Positions 16,637 to 22,649 of a DNA stretch of 64,000 bases are shown here, in pieces. The DNA comes from an uncultured Lachnospiraceae bacterium (GTDB lineage: Bacteria > Bacillota > Clostridia > Lachnospirales > Lachnospiraceae). Under the pieces are notes generated by a model, which saw nothing but the letters and a program-made list of their open reading frames with translations, was not told the origin of the DNA and searched no databases. The stretch covers positions 91,711 through 155,710 of the forward strand of contig CANOMQ010000002.1 in NCBI GenBank assembly GCA_947567595.1. Direction: 5' to 3'. The first letter of the stretch is position 1, and each line of letters begins with the position of its first letter. Both the position numbers and the translations under genes were made by a program.

Positions 16637-16823
16637 ATTGGTCTCCTTCTATTGTTTTTATTTTGGTTATCTTTTTGTTAAAATGTTGTCATTTTGTTAA
16701 TGATAACATAAGTTTTGAAAACCTACAATGTGCTTTGCGTAATTGCATAAATGAAAATGCAATTTCTTTTCCCCCCTAAACAAGAAGTGGAAAGCCTTTA
16801 AAAGACTTCCCACATAAAATCTA

Positions 16824-17129
16824 CTAATTCTGTTCAGACTCATAGTCCGCTAACGGCATTGTAATGAATTGTCCGTCAGCACTTACTCCAATAACAATTT
16901 CTTGTTCTGTGCCACTTCCAATAATATCTCCAACTTTTACGTTTTCTTGTTTTGTATTATTTCCTGCCATATCCAATATGGAAAAGTTATCAGAGTGAAC
17001 AATGATTTCCTTTCCGTTAATGCCTGTAAAAATTTTTTCCTTAGAGGCATTTGCGTATGTATGTATCCCCGTCCCAACTGCTAATATAACAATAAGAAAA
17101 ACCCCTAGACAGTAAAAAACTTTTTTCAT
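16824..17129 (-). CDS. Small membrane-anchored protein with an 'EIVI..DG.F.T.PL' motif
   Basis: 101 residues with one N-terminal hydrophobic helix (about 5-25), either a signal anchor or signal peptide, then a hydrophilic exported domain. I do not recognise a family. The segment 'EQEIVIGVSADGQFITMPL' near residue 75 resembles 'EEVVISILDDGRFVTTPL' in the next upstream gene, suggesting the two are related or processed alike. GGAG precedes the ATG. It follows that gene by 14 bp and is the last gene of the AT-rich run on the minus strand. Confidence 0.65.
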   Translation of the reverse strand: MKKVFYCLGVFLIVILAVGTGIHTYANASKEKIFTGINGKEIIVHSDNFSILDMAGNNTKQENVKVGDIIGSGTEQEIVIGVSADGQFITMPLADYESEQN

Positions 17130-17143
17130 AAACCCGCTCCAAA

Positions 17144-17581
17144 TTATTTTTCATATCCGCAAACAGTACATACTCTACTAAATATATTCTTATATTTATG
17201 CTTCACATCTGTCCATGTTTTATCATAAATTTTATATCCCGTTTTTCCACATTTAGCACACCTTGCGTCCTCATAGTCACGATATTTATAACAATATGTA
17301 CTATCTGACTTATTATAACTTGAAGTAACCCGATGCATGGTTCCCGTTCCTACTATAATAGTGTGGTCACATGCTGCATACGATTGAACCGTTAATGGTG
17401 TTGTGACAAAACGACCATCGTCTAAAATTGATATTACAACCTCCTCCCCTTCTTCTCCTTCAATGATATCATTGATATTAATATCTGATTCCGGCATATC
17501 TGCCGCAAATGCAGTTGTACCAAGTACGAGATATGCCGCACAAGATGCCGCAATAATTATTTTTCTTAATTTATTAAACAT
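17144..17581 (-). CDS. Secreted small protein with a Cys/His zinc-ribbon-like C-terminus
   Basis: 145 residues. There is a clear signal peptide with predicted cleavage after 'TTAFA' near residue 26. After a short acidic stretch comes 'EEVVISILDDGRFVTTPL'. The C-terminal half has 'ACDHTIIVGTGTMHRV', then Tyr-rich spacing, 'CAKCGKTGYKIYDK' and a final 'CTVCGYE'. The Cys/His spacing suggests a metal-binding or disulfide-bonded exported domain. The same order (CxH, GT, H, C, YxDAxYC, KCG) is seen in the ectodomain of the M56 protein encoded at 20009-21358. GGAGG precedes the ATG. Function is unknown. Confidence 0.7.
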   Translation of the reverse strand: MFNKLRKIIIAASCAAYLVLGTTAFAADMPESDININDIIEGEEGEEVVISILDDGRFVTTPLTVQSYAACDHTIIVGTGTMHRVTSSYNKSDSTYCYKYRDYEDARCAKCGKTGYKIYDKTWTDVKHKYKNIFSRVCTVCGYEK

Positions 17582-17630
17582 TATATGATTCCTCCTTAAT
17601 ATTACGCTTTTATATGACTAAATAAACTTA

Positions 17631-18152
17631 TTATGCTATGTTTGAAATTTTTCCATTAGTGGCTATTGAATATGTAAAGCAGCCAAAAAACTCACCATAA
17701 TAAAAAATATTAGCTCTTCCCAGTTCGCTGGTATAAGCCGCTCGATATGAAAAATTATTTGCAAGTGTACCGGTAAAATAACCACTGACATTGGTTATAA
17801 AAGAAGTTCTGTTAGCTTGGTCATATATTCCTGTAACCGTAGCATAAAATGTAGCTATTAAAACATCATCTTTGCCATATATCTTATGTGCAAACGTTAC
17901 TGTATTTTCCTTTTCAGGATATGATCTCAATGAATTTCCGGAATTCTTATATGCAGGATCGTGAATTTCCTCTGTTATGCATACAAAACCATTGTCCAAT
18001 ACCTCCACATTATCCAAGTACATTGGTACTCCTTCTTCAAATGATTCCGCCGCATATGTTGTGAACGAACTCGCCAAAACCATGATAAGAGAAACCATTA
18101 CAGCAATCACTTTTTTACCTATAAACCTTCCCATTTTTTTGTTATCCTTCAT
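17631..18152 (-). CDS. Secreted protein of unknown function
   Basis: 173 residues from the ATG at 18152, chosen because AAGGAG lies eight bases upstream. A basic N-terminus (MKDNKKMGRFIGKK) is followed by a hydrophobic core and cleavage near 'TTYAAES' (about residue 36). The mature part, about 137 residues, is rich in Asn, Ser, Thr and aromatic residues and looks beta-rich ('ATFYATVTGIYDQANRTSFITNVSGYFTG'). I do not recognise it. It contains 'VEVLDNGFVCITEE', a faint echo of the D-G-F motif in the two downstream proteins. It lies in the same-strand run with them. Confidence 0.65.
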   Translation of the reverse strand: MKDNKKMGRFIGKKVIAVMVSLIMVLASSFTTYAAESFEEGVPMYLDNVEVLDNGFVCITEEIHDPAYKNSGNSLRSYPEKENTVTFAHKIYGKDDVLIATFYATVTGIYDQANRTSFITNVSGYFTGTLANNFSYRAAYTSELGRANIFYYGEFFGCFTYSIATNGKISNIA

Positions 18153-18253
18153 ATTATTAACTCCTTTCCCATTCAACTTATTAATATTTTCATGCCACAT
18201 ATCCACCCTAAAATCATAATAAGCGAAAAATTATTAAACTTACTTTTTGTGTT

Positions 18254-18712
18254 TTATACCACCCTGCTTTTGGAAATCATCTTGAAAATAACGTACCCAC
18301 AGGAAATTCCTATACTGTTTAATATAATATCGTCAACGTCAAATGCACCCAACATGCATATAAGTTGAGCAACCTCAATAATTAAAATATAAACCAATCC
18401 CACCAAAAATGTTCTGAGATATTTTCTCACAGCCTCATACCCCATTGGAAGCAAAAAGCCAAATGGAACAAAAACAGCTATGTTTCCAGCAAGGTTTTCT
18501 ATAACAATAATTGGTATAGTCTTAATACGGCTTAGTTGTGAAGAAATGGTTCTAAACGGTACCAAGTTGCAATTCCATGCCCCTTGTTCCCTGCTCATCT
18601 TAATAAAATTTACTCTTTCTATGATTGAGTTTACGGATAAATCAAATTTAAACAATAACGAAATAGATAATATAATACAGTATATTATAAATATTTTTCT
18701 TATCGCTTTCAC
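18254..18712 (-). CDS. VanZ-like membrane protein
   Basis: 152 residues starting at GTG with GGAGG seven bases upstream. It has four or so transmembrane segments and the VanZ pattern: 'NLVPFRTI' near residue 50, 'ENLAGNIAVFVPFGFLLP' near 72, and 'VEVAQL'-like 'IIEVAQLICMLGAFDVDDIILNSIG' near 115 (quoted in parts). VanZ-like proteins can lower glycopeptide binding or serve unknown envelope roles. It sits among secreted-protein genes under a BlaI/M56 pair, which hints at an envelope-response regulon. Confidence 0.8.
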   Translation of the reverse strand: MKAIRKIFIIYCIILSISLLFKFDLSVNSIIERVNFIKMSREQGAWNCNLVPFRTISSQLSRIKTIPIIVIENLAGNIAVFVPFGFLLPMGYEAVRKYLRTFLVGLVYILIIEVAQLICMLGAFDVDDIILNSIGISCGYVIFKMISKSRVV

Positions 18713-18813
18713 CCAACAACCTCCAAAACAGGCATTCCTCTATGGATTACATGTAGCAAGTATGATGATATATGTACCAATACCATACTTGTTGCATTTT
18801 GTCTTAACGAACC

Positions 18814-19320
18814 TTATTTCTTGGAAATAGTTCCATTAAATGAATATCTGTTTGAATTTAGTGGAACCCTAAAGCCAATATAATATTTTGCCGTAGACGT
18901 AAGTCCCGTGAAAGTCGCTGAACCTGATTCTTTAGAAATCGTTATTGTTTCGCTATCTACTAGTTTTTTGTTCGAATCGTAGACCTCCAAAGTCAGTTGA
19001 TCGTTTGTTGCTCCATGATATTCCTCTATAAGTTTCCAATCAGCAACACTAATCTTAATTGAAGAAGCTCCTGTAATCCATTTATTTGTATATACCCGAG
19101 CTCCCATATCTGTTACTTCATAACTATAAGAAGAATCAGATAAGTTATGCGTACCAGCACTACCAGAAGGAGGATTTTTTCCTCTTGCTTCGATTCCCGA
19201 TGCCGTTGGCGGAGTCGGAGACAAAGTATAAACTTCTTCACTAGCTGATACCTGCATACACATGGCAATGCATAAAACCAATGATAGCATTAATGAAATT
19301 ATTCCTTTCTTCCTGCGCAC
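18814..19320 (-). CDS. Secreted protein of unknown function
   Basis: 168 residues starting at GTG with AAGGAG eight bases upstream. The signal peptide is 'KGIISLMLSLVLCIAMCMQVSAS', written here only to about its core, with cleavage near residue 27. The mature part begins with a Pro-rich linker ('SPTPPTASG'), then a region of about 100 residues with beta-rich pattern ending 'KYYIGFRVPLNSNRYSF'. This resembles a single immunoglobulin- or fibronectin-like module, but I cannot name it. It precedes the vanZ-like gene in the same direction. Confidence 0.65.
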   Translation of the reverse strand: MRRKKGIISLMLSLVLCIAMCMQVSASEEVYTLSPTPPTASGIEARGKNPPSGSAGTHNLSDSSYSYEVTDMGARVYTNKWITGASSIKISVADWKLIEEYHGATNDQLTLEVYDSNKKLVDSETITISKESGSATFTGLTSTAKYYIGFRVPLNSNRYSFNGTISKK

Positions 19321-19571
19321 AATAAATGCTCCTTTCTTCAGTAAATAATTGATTGAGCCTGTAATTAATTATGTTACCCCTAATTCAATCCACTTAGGAT
19401 TCACTGCATTAATTTTACAACCTTTTCAATTATGGATTAATAGTTTCATTTATACAGCTGTATATATTAATGATACAATTATTATATTCCGCTTCTATCA
19501 AAATAGGAAGTGACAAAGCGGTGTTAATAGGGTGTCAAAATAATGCAAAAAATAATAGTACCCTATTAACT

Positions 19572-19937
19572 TTAATTTATATATTCCTTAAATTCGCCCT
19601 TAGAAAGAAACAGTTCAATCTTTTTTAATGCATTCTGTTGTATCCGCTTAAATGTTCTGTCGGAATAATTAAATGCGGTTCCGACTTCTTTTCCATACAG
19701 GTCTTCTATTTCTTTCCACGTTTTTTCATCAATCAGATGCCATAATATTATTTTTTTCTCATCTTCCTTTAAAATCTCCAGTGCAGATTCTATAATTTGG
19801 ATTTTTATAGCAATTTGAGAATACTCTTCGTTCTTATCTGCATTTTGAGAATATTTTTGAATTTTATCTAATATATCCCTTCTCGCTTTCAATTCAGGAT
19901 ATGATTTTATAAATTCTTTGATTGCTTCTTCTGTCAT
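19572..19937 (-). CDS. Sigma-factor-like protein with region-4 type helix-turn-helix
   Basis: 121 residues. The C-terminal half has the region-4 pattern 'LKEDEKKIILWHLIDEKTWKEIEDLYG', then 'DRTFKRIQQNALKKIE', as in sigma-70 region 4 and in ArpU/phage late-gene activators. No region 2 is present, so it is not a full sigma factor by itself. It lies between the M56 gene and the secreted-protein genes on the same strand and is a candidate activator of them. There is no adjacent anti-sigma gene. The first stretch (1-50) is charged and helical. Confidence 0.7.
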   Translation of the reverse strand: MTEEAIKEFIKSYPELKARRDILDKIQKYSQNADKNEEYSQIAIKIQIIESALEILKEDEKKIILWHLIDEKTWKEIEDLYGKEVGTAFNYSDRTFKRIQQNALKKIELFLSKGEFKEYIN

Positions 19938-20008
19938 TATAATCGTAATCCCTCCATATTCATAATATCATTTGAATATCTTTTAAAATTATCGGTTAAA
20001 AGTCTGTT

Positions 20009-21358
20009 TTAGTGAGGACATACAGCATAAATAGACGATTTGACAAAATCACCATAAACCACATGCCCACATTTCGTACAATATTTAGCATCATAGTAAT
20101 TCATCTTACAACCACCTTTGCCGTCTTTTATATGATTTGCAATCGTTCCCGAAGCATATGCATGACTACAAGCCCTATACATTTGGTCTGTTTCTGTATG
20201 TACATCATAATAAACCTTGCCCTCTTCACTAACAAAAAATATAATATTATCTGCATTAACATATATTTCGTATGCATCATACTTTATATCAATTTCTGTA
20301 CGTCCATCTTGCTCCCAATCACTATACAGGTAACTACTCTCTACCTTTTCGTACGGTGTATCAAGATACCAAATCTGCCTCTCCTCATACGCATAAACCG
20401 TCAGAGACGACGCAAAAACCGCAAGCGCAATCATAACACCTCCTGCTAATTTGCTCATTTTCCCAAACCTCTTACCCATCTTTTTCATTCTTTTCATATT
20501 CTCAATCCTTTCTTTTAATTGTTTTTCACTTAAATTCAATCCTACAATCGGCATTGTCCTGTCTTCCTGATTTTCTGAAAAATCTATCAGCATGTTAATA
20601 TAATCCTTTGTTTCTCCTAAGCTTTTGTTTGCTACAACCTTTTCATCACAATACATCTCGGAAAACAAATTCCATTGGTACAGCAGATAATACACAAACG
20701 GATTATAAAAATTCAGAAACACCACAAGAGCCAAAATCACCTTGATAAAATTGTCTTTTGCACGAACATGAATTAGCTCATGACGCAGCGTATCCTCCAA
20801 TCTGCCCTTCTCCCAAGTGACCGCCGGAAGTATAATTCTTCCGTGTATAATACCAATTGTAATCGGCGTTGTAAGACCGTGACACAGATACACCTTGTTT
20901 TTTATATGCCTTTTCCTTCCTTTGGTCAGTTCACGTATTACAAGCTCTCCCTGCTCATATCGCTCCACCCCTTTCATAATTTTTTTATATACAGTAAGAT
21001 ACCTTTTTAGTTGTACACTCAATCCGCCAATTCCAAACAGAACACCTGCCGCAACAGCAGTATACATGACTACATTTGACAGATAAACGCCGTTTCGATA
21101 GACAAAAACCGTATGCTCAATCATATCCTTGACAACGTTATGCCCCTGATACCATGTTTCGCACTGCAAACATTTGTTTATCAGCTCGGCATATTCCGTT
21201 TTGAACCGTGCAAACGGCACGAGAAACAGCAGAATATTTACAGTAAGATACACCTTATGCCACAATGTCGGCAGATGCCGCTTTGTCAAAACATACATCA
21301 GCAGATAAATCAGAACCACAATGCTTCCCGCCAAGCTCATCGTGTGAAACAGCGACAT
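20009..21358 (-). CDS. BlaR1-like M56 membrane metalloprotease sensor with Cys/His ectodomain
   Basis: 449 residues if started at the ATG at 21358, one base after the blaI-like stop and with GGAGGAG just upstream; a longer frame to 21487 overlaps blaI. It has three N-terminal transmembrane segments (about 8-24, 37-52, 94-113), the zinc protease motif HELIH at 193-197 in 'DTLRHELIHVRAKDN', a helix near 212-230, and another near 345-360. The C-terminal ~90 residues lie outside. No penicillin-binding domain is present. Instead there is a short Cys/His-rich domain: 'ACSHAYASGT', 'GGCKMNYYDAKYCTKCGH' and a final Cys-Pro-His. On a signal, such proteases cleave the BlaI-type repressor. The ligand is unknown. 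Confidence 0.85.
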   Translation of the reverse strand: MSLFHTMSLAGSIVVLIYLLMYVLTKRHLPTLWHKVYLTVNILLFLVPFARFKTEYAELINKCLQCETWYQGHNVVKDMIEHTVFVYRNGVYLSNVVMYTAVAAGVLFGIGGLSVQLKRYLTVYKKIMKGVERYEQGELVIRELTKGRKRHIKNKVYLCHGLTTPITIGIIHGRIILPAVTWEKGRLEDTLRHELIHVRAKDNFIKVILALVVFLNFYNPFVYYLLYQWNLFSEMYCDEKVVANKSLGETKDYINMLIDFSENQEDRTMPIVGLNLSEKQLKERIENMKRMKKMGKRFGKMSKLAGGVMIALAVFASSLTVYAYEERQIWYLDTPYEKVESSYLYSDWEQDGRTEIDIKYDAYEIYVNADNIIFFVSEEGKVYYDVHTETDQMYRACSHAYASGTIANHIKDGKGGCKMNYYDAKYCTKCGHVVYGDFVKSSIYAVCPH

Positions 21359-21359
21359 A

Positions 21360-21758
21360 CTACTCCTCCTTTTCCGCAAAATCCCCCTCAACAACCGACC
21401 GCAGCGCGTCCGCAAATTTTTTGTCAACTTTTCTTCCTCCGGTAAGTGCCGACAAGAAGGAGCCAATTGAGCCGCCATAATAATCATTCAAAAGCTTTAC
21501 TGCCTTGCCCTGTTCATATTCCGTTTTTGTCACTGCCGCATGGTACACGCGGTTTTTCCCCGTTTCGTCTGCCGTGACAAGTCCCTTATCCGTCAGCCGC
21601 TTGATAAAGGTATTGACTGTCTGCTTTTTCCAGTCCCTGCCCTCCTCTTCATTTAAATAGGTCATAATCTCCACGAAGCTCTTTGTGCCCTCTCTCCACA
21701 AGTAATTCATGACAAGGCTCTCTGATTGTGTCATTTCATATATTATGTTTTTTCCCAT
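21360..21758 (-). CDS. BlaI/MecI family transcriptional repressor
   Basis: 132 residues from the ATG at 21758; a GTG at 21767 is an alternative but its spacing to AAGGG is too short. It has the BlaI winged helix: 'MTQSESLVMNYLWREGTKSFVEIM' (in parts), then 'KQTVNTFIKRLTDKGLV' and 'NRVYHAAVTKTEYEQ'. A C-terminal dimerisation region contains the site usually cut by the partner protease. It is directly coupled to the M56 gene, as in bla/mec-type pairs. Targets probably include its own operon and perhaps the exported-protein genes downstream, which is inference. Confidence 0.9.
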   Translation of the reverse strand: MGKNIIYEMTQSESLVMNYLWREGTKSFVEIMTYLNEEEGRDWKKQTVNTFIKRLTDKGLVTADETGKNRVYHAAVTKTEYEQGKAVKLLNDYYGGSIGSFLSALTGGRKVDKKFADALRSVVEGDFAEKEE

Positions 21759-21852
21759 ATTTTTCACCCTTTCGACTCATTATCGTTTGTTTTTATTGTA
21801 CTACAAGCGTATAATACTGTAAAGAAAATATGGTTATTCTCCCGCAAAGCCG

Positions 21853-21883
21853 AAAAAAATACCGACAGGCACTTCCCGTCGGC
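21853..21883 (-). terminator. Terminator after the toxin-antitoxin region
   Basis: On the minus strand GCCGAC pairs with GTCGGT around an 11-base loop (21861-21883) and is followed by seven T residues (21853-21859). It ends transcripts coming from the RelE-type operon and insulates the convergent-facing blaI promoter region. Confidence 0.7.
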
Positions 21884-21934
21884 ATTTTCATTATATCCTA
21901 ATATCATTCCTTATACTTTGTTTTCGATTTCTTA

Positions 21935-22087
21935 CTATATCCTTTGCAACCTTTTCTCCTCCAACATTTTGGCAACTGCCATTGATGCGATATATTTGCT
22001 ACCTGTAGCCTTATGTCCATTGTACAATGTATCAGTTTTGATGTTTCCAGTTCCTTCGGCAATAACAAATACAGGAGGACCTACTCT
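21935..22087 (-). pseudogene. Orphan 3' coding fragment after the toxin gene
   Basis: A 50-codon open stretch with no start codon lies just after, and slightly overlapping, the RelE-type toxin stop. It reads 'GPPVFVIAEGTGN', 'GHKATGSKYIASMAVAKMLEE' and then TAG. The composition looks like real protein, with a plausible terminal helix, so I take it as the truncated end of a gene whose front was lost, perhaps when the toxin-antitoxin pair was inserted. I cannot name the family. Confidence 0.35.
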
Positions 22088-22434
22088 TCATCCCAAAAAT
22101 CAACCGTTTCCTGCGAGGTAGTGACAATGCCAAACATGTGATACATAAAATCCTCTTTTTCATGAAAGATTTCAAGTATAATAATTGTATCATTCAAAAT
22201 ACGATATATAAAATAATTATGCACTATATAAAGCATATAATAATCGCAATCCAAATCATACTGTTCCCGCATGGATATGCCCAACTGCGGAAACTGCTTT
22301 AGCTTTGCAATTGTCCCTGAAATCCGTTTGGAAACCTTTTCAGCGGTTTCCTGACCGTATCGTTCTTTTATTTCTTTTTTCATGGACTTTCGTTTGGATA
22401 AAGCAGTTTTCGAGTAAATAATTTTCCTTGTCAT
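22081..22434 (-). CDS. RelE/ParE-type toxin
   Basis: 117 residues. The pattern is that of RelE/ParE folds: 'IYSKTALSKRKSMKKEIKERYG' at the front, 'ISGTIAKLKQFPQLGISMRE' in the middle, 'YYMLYIVHNYFIYRILNDTIIILEIFHEKEDFMYHMFG' (in parts) as the closing beta sheet. Toxins of this fold cut mRNA on the ribosome or poison gyrase; which applies here is unclear. The start overlaps the antitoxin stop as ATGA, the classic coupling. The tail beyond 'HEKEDF' is longer than usual by about 20 residues. Confidence 0.8.
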   Translation of the reverse strand: MTRKIIYSKTALSKRKSMKKEIKERYGQETAEKVSKRISGTIAKLKQFPQLGISMREQYDLDCDYYMLYIVHNYFIYRILNDTIIILEIFHEKEDFMYHMFGIVTTSQETVDFWDEE

Positions 22435-22649
22435 ACGTTCGCCAGTTCTTCCTCCGCTTCCTCTTCCGTATAAAACCCTTCTTTTATGGACTGTTCCGCA
22501 GCGTCCATTTTATTCATAAAAATCCGAAACGCCTTTTCCCGGTCAGACAATGCAGCGGACGCTGTCAACTGCTCAACAAGCTGTTCCACCTCATGGTACG
22601 CCTCCTGCGGGAGCAGATCAATTTTTTGGGTTAATTCTGTGGTAATCAT
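22431..22649 (-). CDS. Antitoxin of the RelE/ParE-type pair
   Basis: 72 residues, helical and acidic: 'LTQKIDLLPQEAYHEVEQLVEQL' then 'IFMNKMDAAEQSIKEGFYTEEEAEEELANV'. This is the style of small antitoxins in which the C-terminal 'EGFYTEEEA' stretch wraps the toxin. A clear DNA-binding domain is not obvious, though the N-terminus resembles DUF2281-type antitoxins. AAGGAG precedes the ATG. The stop codon overlaps the toxin start by four bases. Confidence 0.75.
   Translation of the reverse strand: MITTELTQKIDLLPQEAYHEVEQLVEQLTASAALSDREKAFRIFMNKMDAAEQSIKEGFYTEEEAEEELANV

Follow-up and report, generated by a model that had tools for sequence, protein, structure and literature searches.

What might a BlaI-type repressor and its membrane protease control where no beta-lactamase or mecA-type gene stands beside them? 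The question is raised by a block of eight minus-strand genes in a stretch of 64,000 nucleotides (the window) from an uncultured Lachnospiraceae bacterium (contig CANOMQ010000002.1, our G000:C2; host genome of 4.16 Mb in 99 contigs), which runs from blaI at 21758 to secD at 16824 in the order blaI, M56, sig, secA, VanZ, secB, secC and secD. The answer that we consider probable is a two-step switch, in which the BlaI/M56 pair and then a phage-type activator, encoded by sig, would drive a swappable set of exported proteins (the cargo). The gene order, the operator, the repeat array with its geometry, the homologies and the differences in cargo are read directly from the sequence.

The first step is the more familiar one. 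The product of blaI (21360..21758, minus strand; 132 aa) is a BlaI/MecI/CopY-type repressor (PF03965, 84.5 bits, cut-off 22.6) and its neighbor (20009..21358, minus strand; 449 aa) is an M56 membrane metalloprotease/sensor (PF05569, 97.8 bits), a pair that an initial annotation of this DNA had already recognized. BlaI/MecI operators have TACA..TGTA halves. A dyad of this type, TATTATACGCTTGTAGTA (21816-21799, minus strand), overlaps the blaI promoter (21795..21823, minus strand), which has its -35 TTTACA at 21823-21818 and its -10 TACAAT at 21800-21795 and, with 10/12 matches, is among the best promoter-like sites; -35, -10 and dyad are combined in the element TTTACAGTATTATACGCTTGTAGTACAAT (21823-21795). 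A scan with one pattern placed this element ahead of blaI in 9 of 21 loci (the window, which is counted, and 20 loci of relatives, several having no blaI there or starting at a contig edge), and a variant was seen by eye in three further loci, L057, L058 and L061. The consensus operator has a single copy in the host genome at up to 3 mismatches, in a genome with nine BlaI-family matches and 13 M56 matches (12 over the cut-off, two of these being adjoining pieces of one locus). The shared inverted repeat suggested in the initial annotation is thus found before blaI, and none was detected before the secreted genes by the pattern used: TACTACANNNNTGTAGTA, at up to 3 mismatches, gave four sites in the window against 1.3 expected, those in the block being the blaI site and one within secC (17351) only, and a BlaI operator before the exported genes was dropped as a candidate.

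The HExxH motif of the M56 protein (residues 193-197) is invariant at H193, E194 and H197 in an alignment of eight sequences. It was right to describe the sensor as having no penicillin-binding domain, since none was found in Pfam at E<=1 and the NCBIfam BlaR1 model gave 66.7 bits, below its cut-off of 400. The protein ends in a short Cys/His tail, its last 60 residues (20012..20191, minus strand), in which eight residues of metal-ligand type, five Cys and three His, are invariant among 18 sequences, a pattern that suggests a metal-binding domain. Of 299 genomes sampled from across the family, 19 have this tail, the host genome being counted, and a whole-protein M56 match extends into it in 22 of the 60 nearest genomes. 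The block thus resembles BlaR1-BlaI and MecR1-MecI in having a BlaI-family repressor beside an M56 protease with HExxH, and an operator that overlaps the blaI promoter, whereas it differs from BlaR1-BlaI in its sensor end, in having no beta-lactamase or mecA-type gene, and in adding a second, activator-type promoter before the cargo.

Other M56 genes were also seen. Twenty stretches from other genera of the family (L165-L184) hold a tailed M56 with a BlaI-like gene before or after it (mostly by eye), followed by varied genes, exported ones in several. Two loci on other contigs of the host genome (L088 4374-6243 on C18, L089 3983-5911 on C23) combine a small winged-helix-like gene (by eye; no match to PF03965), a tail-less M56 of 392-394 aa and, of a type common to both loci, a tiny exported protein of 86-87 aa; a 78-aa protein lying between M56 and sig in genome G009 (L084) looks similar.

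The second step would depend on sig (19572..19937, minus strand), a 121-aa region-4-like protein that resembles phage late activators. It matches PHROG 36 (phrog_36, 'transcriptional regulator') with an E-value of 2.2e-9, as do six of the seven members of the sig alignment, this one included; phrog_2198 ('Alt-like transcription activator') is matched by two of the seven, the window's not among them (best 3.1e-5), and TP901-1 Alt itself is a strong match to phrog_2198 and a weak one to phrog_36 (E 0.005). In its predicted structure (pLDDT 88.8) the sig product comes nearest to phage region-4-like proteins, which it matches along its whole length (best E 1.6e-3, TM 0.71), and it has a partial resemblance to cellular sigma region 4. 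Sixteen residues are invariant across nine sig sequences. The gene occurs in 11 of the 38 genomes of the genus and in only 3 of the 299 family genomes, own genome included. This resemblance was overlooked in the initial annotation, as were the repeat-array promoter and the nature of secC as a soluble sensor homologue, both described below.

Could sig instead serve as a sigma subunit of RNA polymerase, being region 4 of a split sigma factor, and not as a repeat-binding activator? It shares a region-4-like fold and a weak profile match with ECF sigma factors (Sigma70_r4_2, 21.9 bits, under the cut-off of 25.7; TIGR02937, E 5e-7, below cut-off), its fold has matches to sigma region 4, and the repeats described below resemble -35 elements. 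However, it has only the region-4-like match and no region 2, and hence is not a complete sigma factor; no region-2 partner was seen in the block, and several phased repeats followed by a housekeeping-like -10 are more in keeping with an activator than with a single -35 contact, for which reasons we regard a split sigma factor as very unlikely. As a separate observation, sig relatives in genomes G118, G170 and G034 (L068, L069 and L085, respectively) have no M56 in the stretch read and are close to another small sigma-like gene (by eye); they possibly belong to mobile elements.

The 251-bp gap between sig and secA holds the promoter on which sig would act. Here, three clear direct repeats of the TTG(T/A)CAC type, TTGACACCCTA, TTAACACCGCT and TTGTCACTTCC, with a degenerate fourth, TTTGCATTATT, in front, are phased at 11 bp (19506..19549, minus strand), and a TATAAT -10 box (19481..19486, minus strand) lies 24 bp after the end of the last TTGTCA. 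With this box placed at -12 to -7 the four repeats cover about -75 to -32. For TP901-1 Alt, binding to four direct repeats spanning -76 to -32 is reported, and Ltr genes are said to lie immediately before the promoter they control (PMC13123087); the published phage activator quoted there beside this geometry has repeats 18 bp long, so the activator family is not uniform. In the window, too, the gene sits immediately before a promoter that carries about four phased direct repeats, and the likeness of sig to phage late activators (TP901-1 Alt, ArpU/Ltr/RinA) thus lies in a size of about 120-140 aa, in the gene position, and in a set of three or four phased direct repeats that occupies about -75 to -32, ahead of a -10 box. 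In contrast to those activators, sig is chromosomal, lies behind a BlaI/M56 pair and before exported host proteins, and has a motif unlike that of TP901-1 and no close match in phage records; behind the arrays we found exported proteins, VanZ and lipoprotein-like proteins, and no phage late genes.

The exact pattern TTGTCACT-N22-TATANT was rejected as a means of finding arrays, having given 15 matches in the 38 genomes against 16 for its reversed control, and thus phasing and profile tests were used instead. Twelve regions that follow sig or a fragment of it held 15 TG[TA]C pairs at a spacing of 11, against a shuffle mean of 0.07, and 0 of 2000 shuffles reached this count; every other spacing between 5 and 30 yielded 0 or 1 pair, excepting 22, with 10. 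The array-to--10 spacing of the window is also seen in relatives; the eight promoters from which the profile R1 was built all have it, being picked by a pattern that demands it, and a promoter outside that set (G027:C90) aligns ungapped to the profile end.

R1 was run on the 38 genomes, the 123 best first-look candidates being scored in each, with E-values that, as for R2 below, are rough. At E<=1e-6 it gave 13 matches (three in G006, three in G022, two in G027 and one each in G000, G009, G024, G005 and G012), of which 12 fall in the 11 sig-bearing genomes, seven of these being matched, and one in the 27 others, in G024, which has a blaI-M56 pair at a contig edge. Eight of the 13 are the training set; among the other five, three lie behind sig (G027:C90, G005 and G012), one is the G024 match, and one lies 9.6 kb further down the G022 locus, where three array matches occur within about 10 kb. 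With R2, a profile built without the window and scored on 150 of 1343 candidates of the host genome, the promoter of the window was the best (E 3.5e-8; next, 0.058). The proposal of a self-contained system is consequently upheld, with the operator found once in the host genome and the second promoter occurring a single time when the 123 to 150 best candidates were scored.

To what extent is this arrangement kept in relatives? We compared the 18 best-matching M56 loci, that of the window among them, of which three (G006, G017 and G024) end at a contig edge immediately after M56. The pair of blaI and tailed M56 is conserved and the exported genes are largely different; sig follows the pair in 8 of the 15 readable loci and was not seen in seven, one of which (G015) leaves fewer than 750 bases to read. 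Conservation of the whole block in gene order, which the initial annotation proposed to look for, is therefore not what we found, and its idea of one unit stands in part only: neighbors are partly conserved together, and the exported genes appear to have a promoter of their own. Behind sig lie lipoprotein-like proteins (by eye) in G005, G012, G028 and G016, the latter with an ABC ATPase (PF00005) further on; an exported protein and an Amidase_6 protein in G022; and other exported proteins in G006 and G023, G006 also having a secB homologue 79% identical. In G009, sig stands behind a different, tail-less M56 (PF05569, 74.3 bits), itself behind a small BlaI-like gene (by eye). Two decayed copies in G006, in which the start of M56 is joined to the end of sig, keep both the array, which is still intact, and an exported gene. 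We also observed a family of proteins, 204-410 aa long and sharing a stretch like MEMFALCSYAD, at L141 (G022), L084 (G009), L064 (G006) and L107 (G027), with several copies in G022; two members lie behind arrays (G009 and G022), and the two tested had no Pfam match.

The simplest alternative is a plain BlaI/M56 operon, all eight genes being transcribed from the blaI promoter, with sig a decaying passenger and the repeats a relic. The genes share one strand with mostly short gaps, the only minus-strand terminator-like site seen between blaI and the end of secD lies within M56, and no array was detected in G016. However, the presence of a phased array and a -10 box in the 251-bp gap, an array that stays in register in G006 and G022 beside a decayed sig copy, and the 16 invariant residues of sig speak against a relic, and we judge the plain operon unlikely.

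Several observations weigh against the two-step switch. Transcription running on from the blaI promoter could supply the cargo without any help from sig. The arrays of G005, G012 and G028 lie further down, before the cargo, those of G028 being weak (E 5e-4 and 6e-4); G023 has only a variant array, seen by eye (best R1 value 0.437), the best R1 value in G016 is 0.043, and in G034 a sig relative stands apart from M56 and has no clear array beside it. At E<=0.5, every one of the 38 genomes has weak R1 matches, and matches of about 2e-4 to 6e-4 occur in the sig-less G017 and G014; the one in G017 (1.8e-4), antisense in an mnmE-like gene, was taken as noise. Both the motif and its period of 11 were first spotted by eye in the same regions in which they were then tested, and these include near-copies (L086/L064, L051/L056 and L058/L061), so the 15 pairs are not 15 independent events. 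The alignment of sig to TP901-1 Alt is weak (hhalign probability 14, E 0.002) and R2 does not find the TP901-1 promoter; thus it is the geometry alone that is shared. No fold match of sig reaches E 0.001 in the viral or cellular library. Further, sig has no tblastn match at E<=0.01 in 50,697 phage records, and no relative was confirmed in viral contigs; a recent phage origin was accordingly rejected, and a remote one kept. Finally, the AlphaFold model of M56 is poor (pLDDT 51), does not resolve the tail and is unusable for its structure.

The cargo itself begins with secA (18814..19320, minus strand; 168 aa), for which no relative was found at E<=0.001 in the other 37 of the 38 genomes, so that its case rests on its reading frame, a signal-like N-terminus and a ribosome site. 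It is followed by a VanZ-like membrane protein (18254..18712, minus strand; 152 aa; PF04892, 89.3 bits, cut-off 30.1), which belongs with the VanZ family by this match and differs from its usual setting in that the block has no van gene cluster, VanZ being here one of several cargo proteins; by secB (17631..18152, minus strand), with its start better placed at ATG 18152; and by secC (17144..17581, minus strand) and secD (16824..17129, minus strand). One exported protein thus precedes VanZ and three follow it, rather than two on each side as first listed. All four small sec proteins have signal-peptide-like N-termini (by eye), and none has a Pfam family over its cut-off; plausible ribosome sites stand at most gene starts of the block.

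The strong variation of this cargo between relatives, its AT-richness in the window and the Amidase_6 protein of G022 would also suit an immunity or antagonism island, with exported toxins or bacteriocin-like proteins from which VanZ and secC protect the producer. We hold this to be decidedly improbable, as the window cargo has no toxin or bacteriocin family match in Pfam or NCBIfam and the block has no dedicated export gene.

Cargo and sensor are linked by secC, an exported, Cys/His-rich homologue of the outer part of M56. Its profile, which consists of two sequences only, aligns by hhalign to the M56 tail with an E-value of 4.9e-7 and to the longer ectodomain with 1e-7, against 0.028 for the best of 20 column-shuffled controls. 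A segment is shared between secD and secC (hhalign E 6.2e-8), and no likeness of secD to the M56 ectodomain was detectable (hhalign E 0.086). Three of the 38 genomes have secC: that of the window, G026, where both it and a secD relative follow a tailed M56, and G006, with a decayed copy; all three loci sit at a tailed-M56 or sig locus. By homology, secC probably binds the same ligand as the sensor and damps or tunes the signal. At the end of a G006 contig (L064 6493-6751) a secD remnant runs straight into an M56 fragment, which suggests further copies of the unit beside it.

The block is flanked by two terminator-like hairpins, one upstream (21845..21890, minus strand; fold -21.3 kcal/mol, then a T run) and an intrinsic-terminator-like one at its end (16787..16813, minus strand; 12-pair stem and T run, fold -15.7 kcal/mol). 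All eight genes of the initial annotation are present on the minus strand at the coordinates it gave, and the AT-richness it reported is borne out by a G+C content of 33% in the part from sig through secD and 40% in the blaI-M56 part, the whole window having 45%. A ParE-type toxin gene (PF05016, 40.6 bits) with a 72-aa partner lies just upstream of the block, at 22081-22649 of the window. A plasmid origin of the block was rejected, no match for it being found in a plasmid collection.

Taken as a two-step switch, the block would work as follows. BlaI would repress its own operon until an outside signal meets the Cys/His tail of M56, upon which, by analogy with BlaR1/BlaI, the protease would cleave BlaI and the operon would be transcribed. 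Among its products would be sig, a host-adapted activator of the Alt/ArpU type, which we infer to bind the 11-bp repeats behind its own gene and to fire the promoter of secA, VanZ, secB, secC and secD, thereby amplifying the response; it would also reach other array promoters where these are present, as in G006, G022 and G027. Being a soluble homologue of the outer part of the sensor, secC may dampen or tune the signal. The envelope-sensing role first proposed would fit the block.

No paper on this gene set was found among the matches listed from open-licence papers, and the block is best filed as a variant of BlaI/M56 signaling, real and mostly self-contained. We put forward only tentatively the wider idea of an undescribed form of host signaling, in which a membrane-protease sensor would be coupled to a captured phage late activator, the repeat promoter would serve as a portable address, cargo would be swapped or duplicated under a control in trans that outlasts local regulators, and a secreted sensor domain would act as a feedback decoy. 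If true, the two-step switch would bring together, in gut-type bacteria, the protease relay of BlaR1/BlaI and the activation of late genes known from phages, which have been studied as separate systems; the array would offer a concrete promoter address for reading the regulon from sequence, and the block a handle on the role of BlaI/M56 pairs without a beta-lactam sensor.

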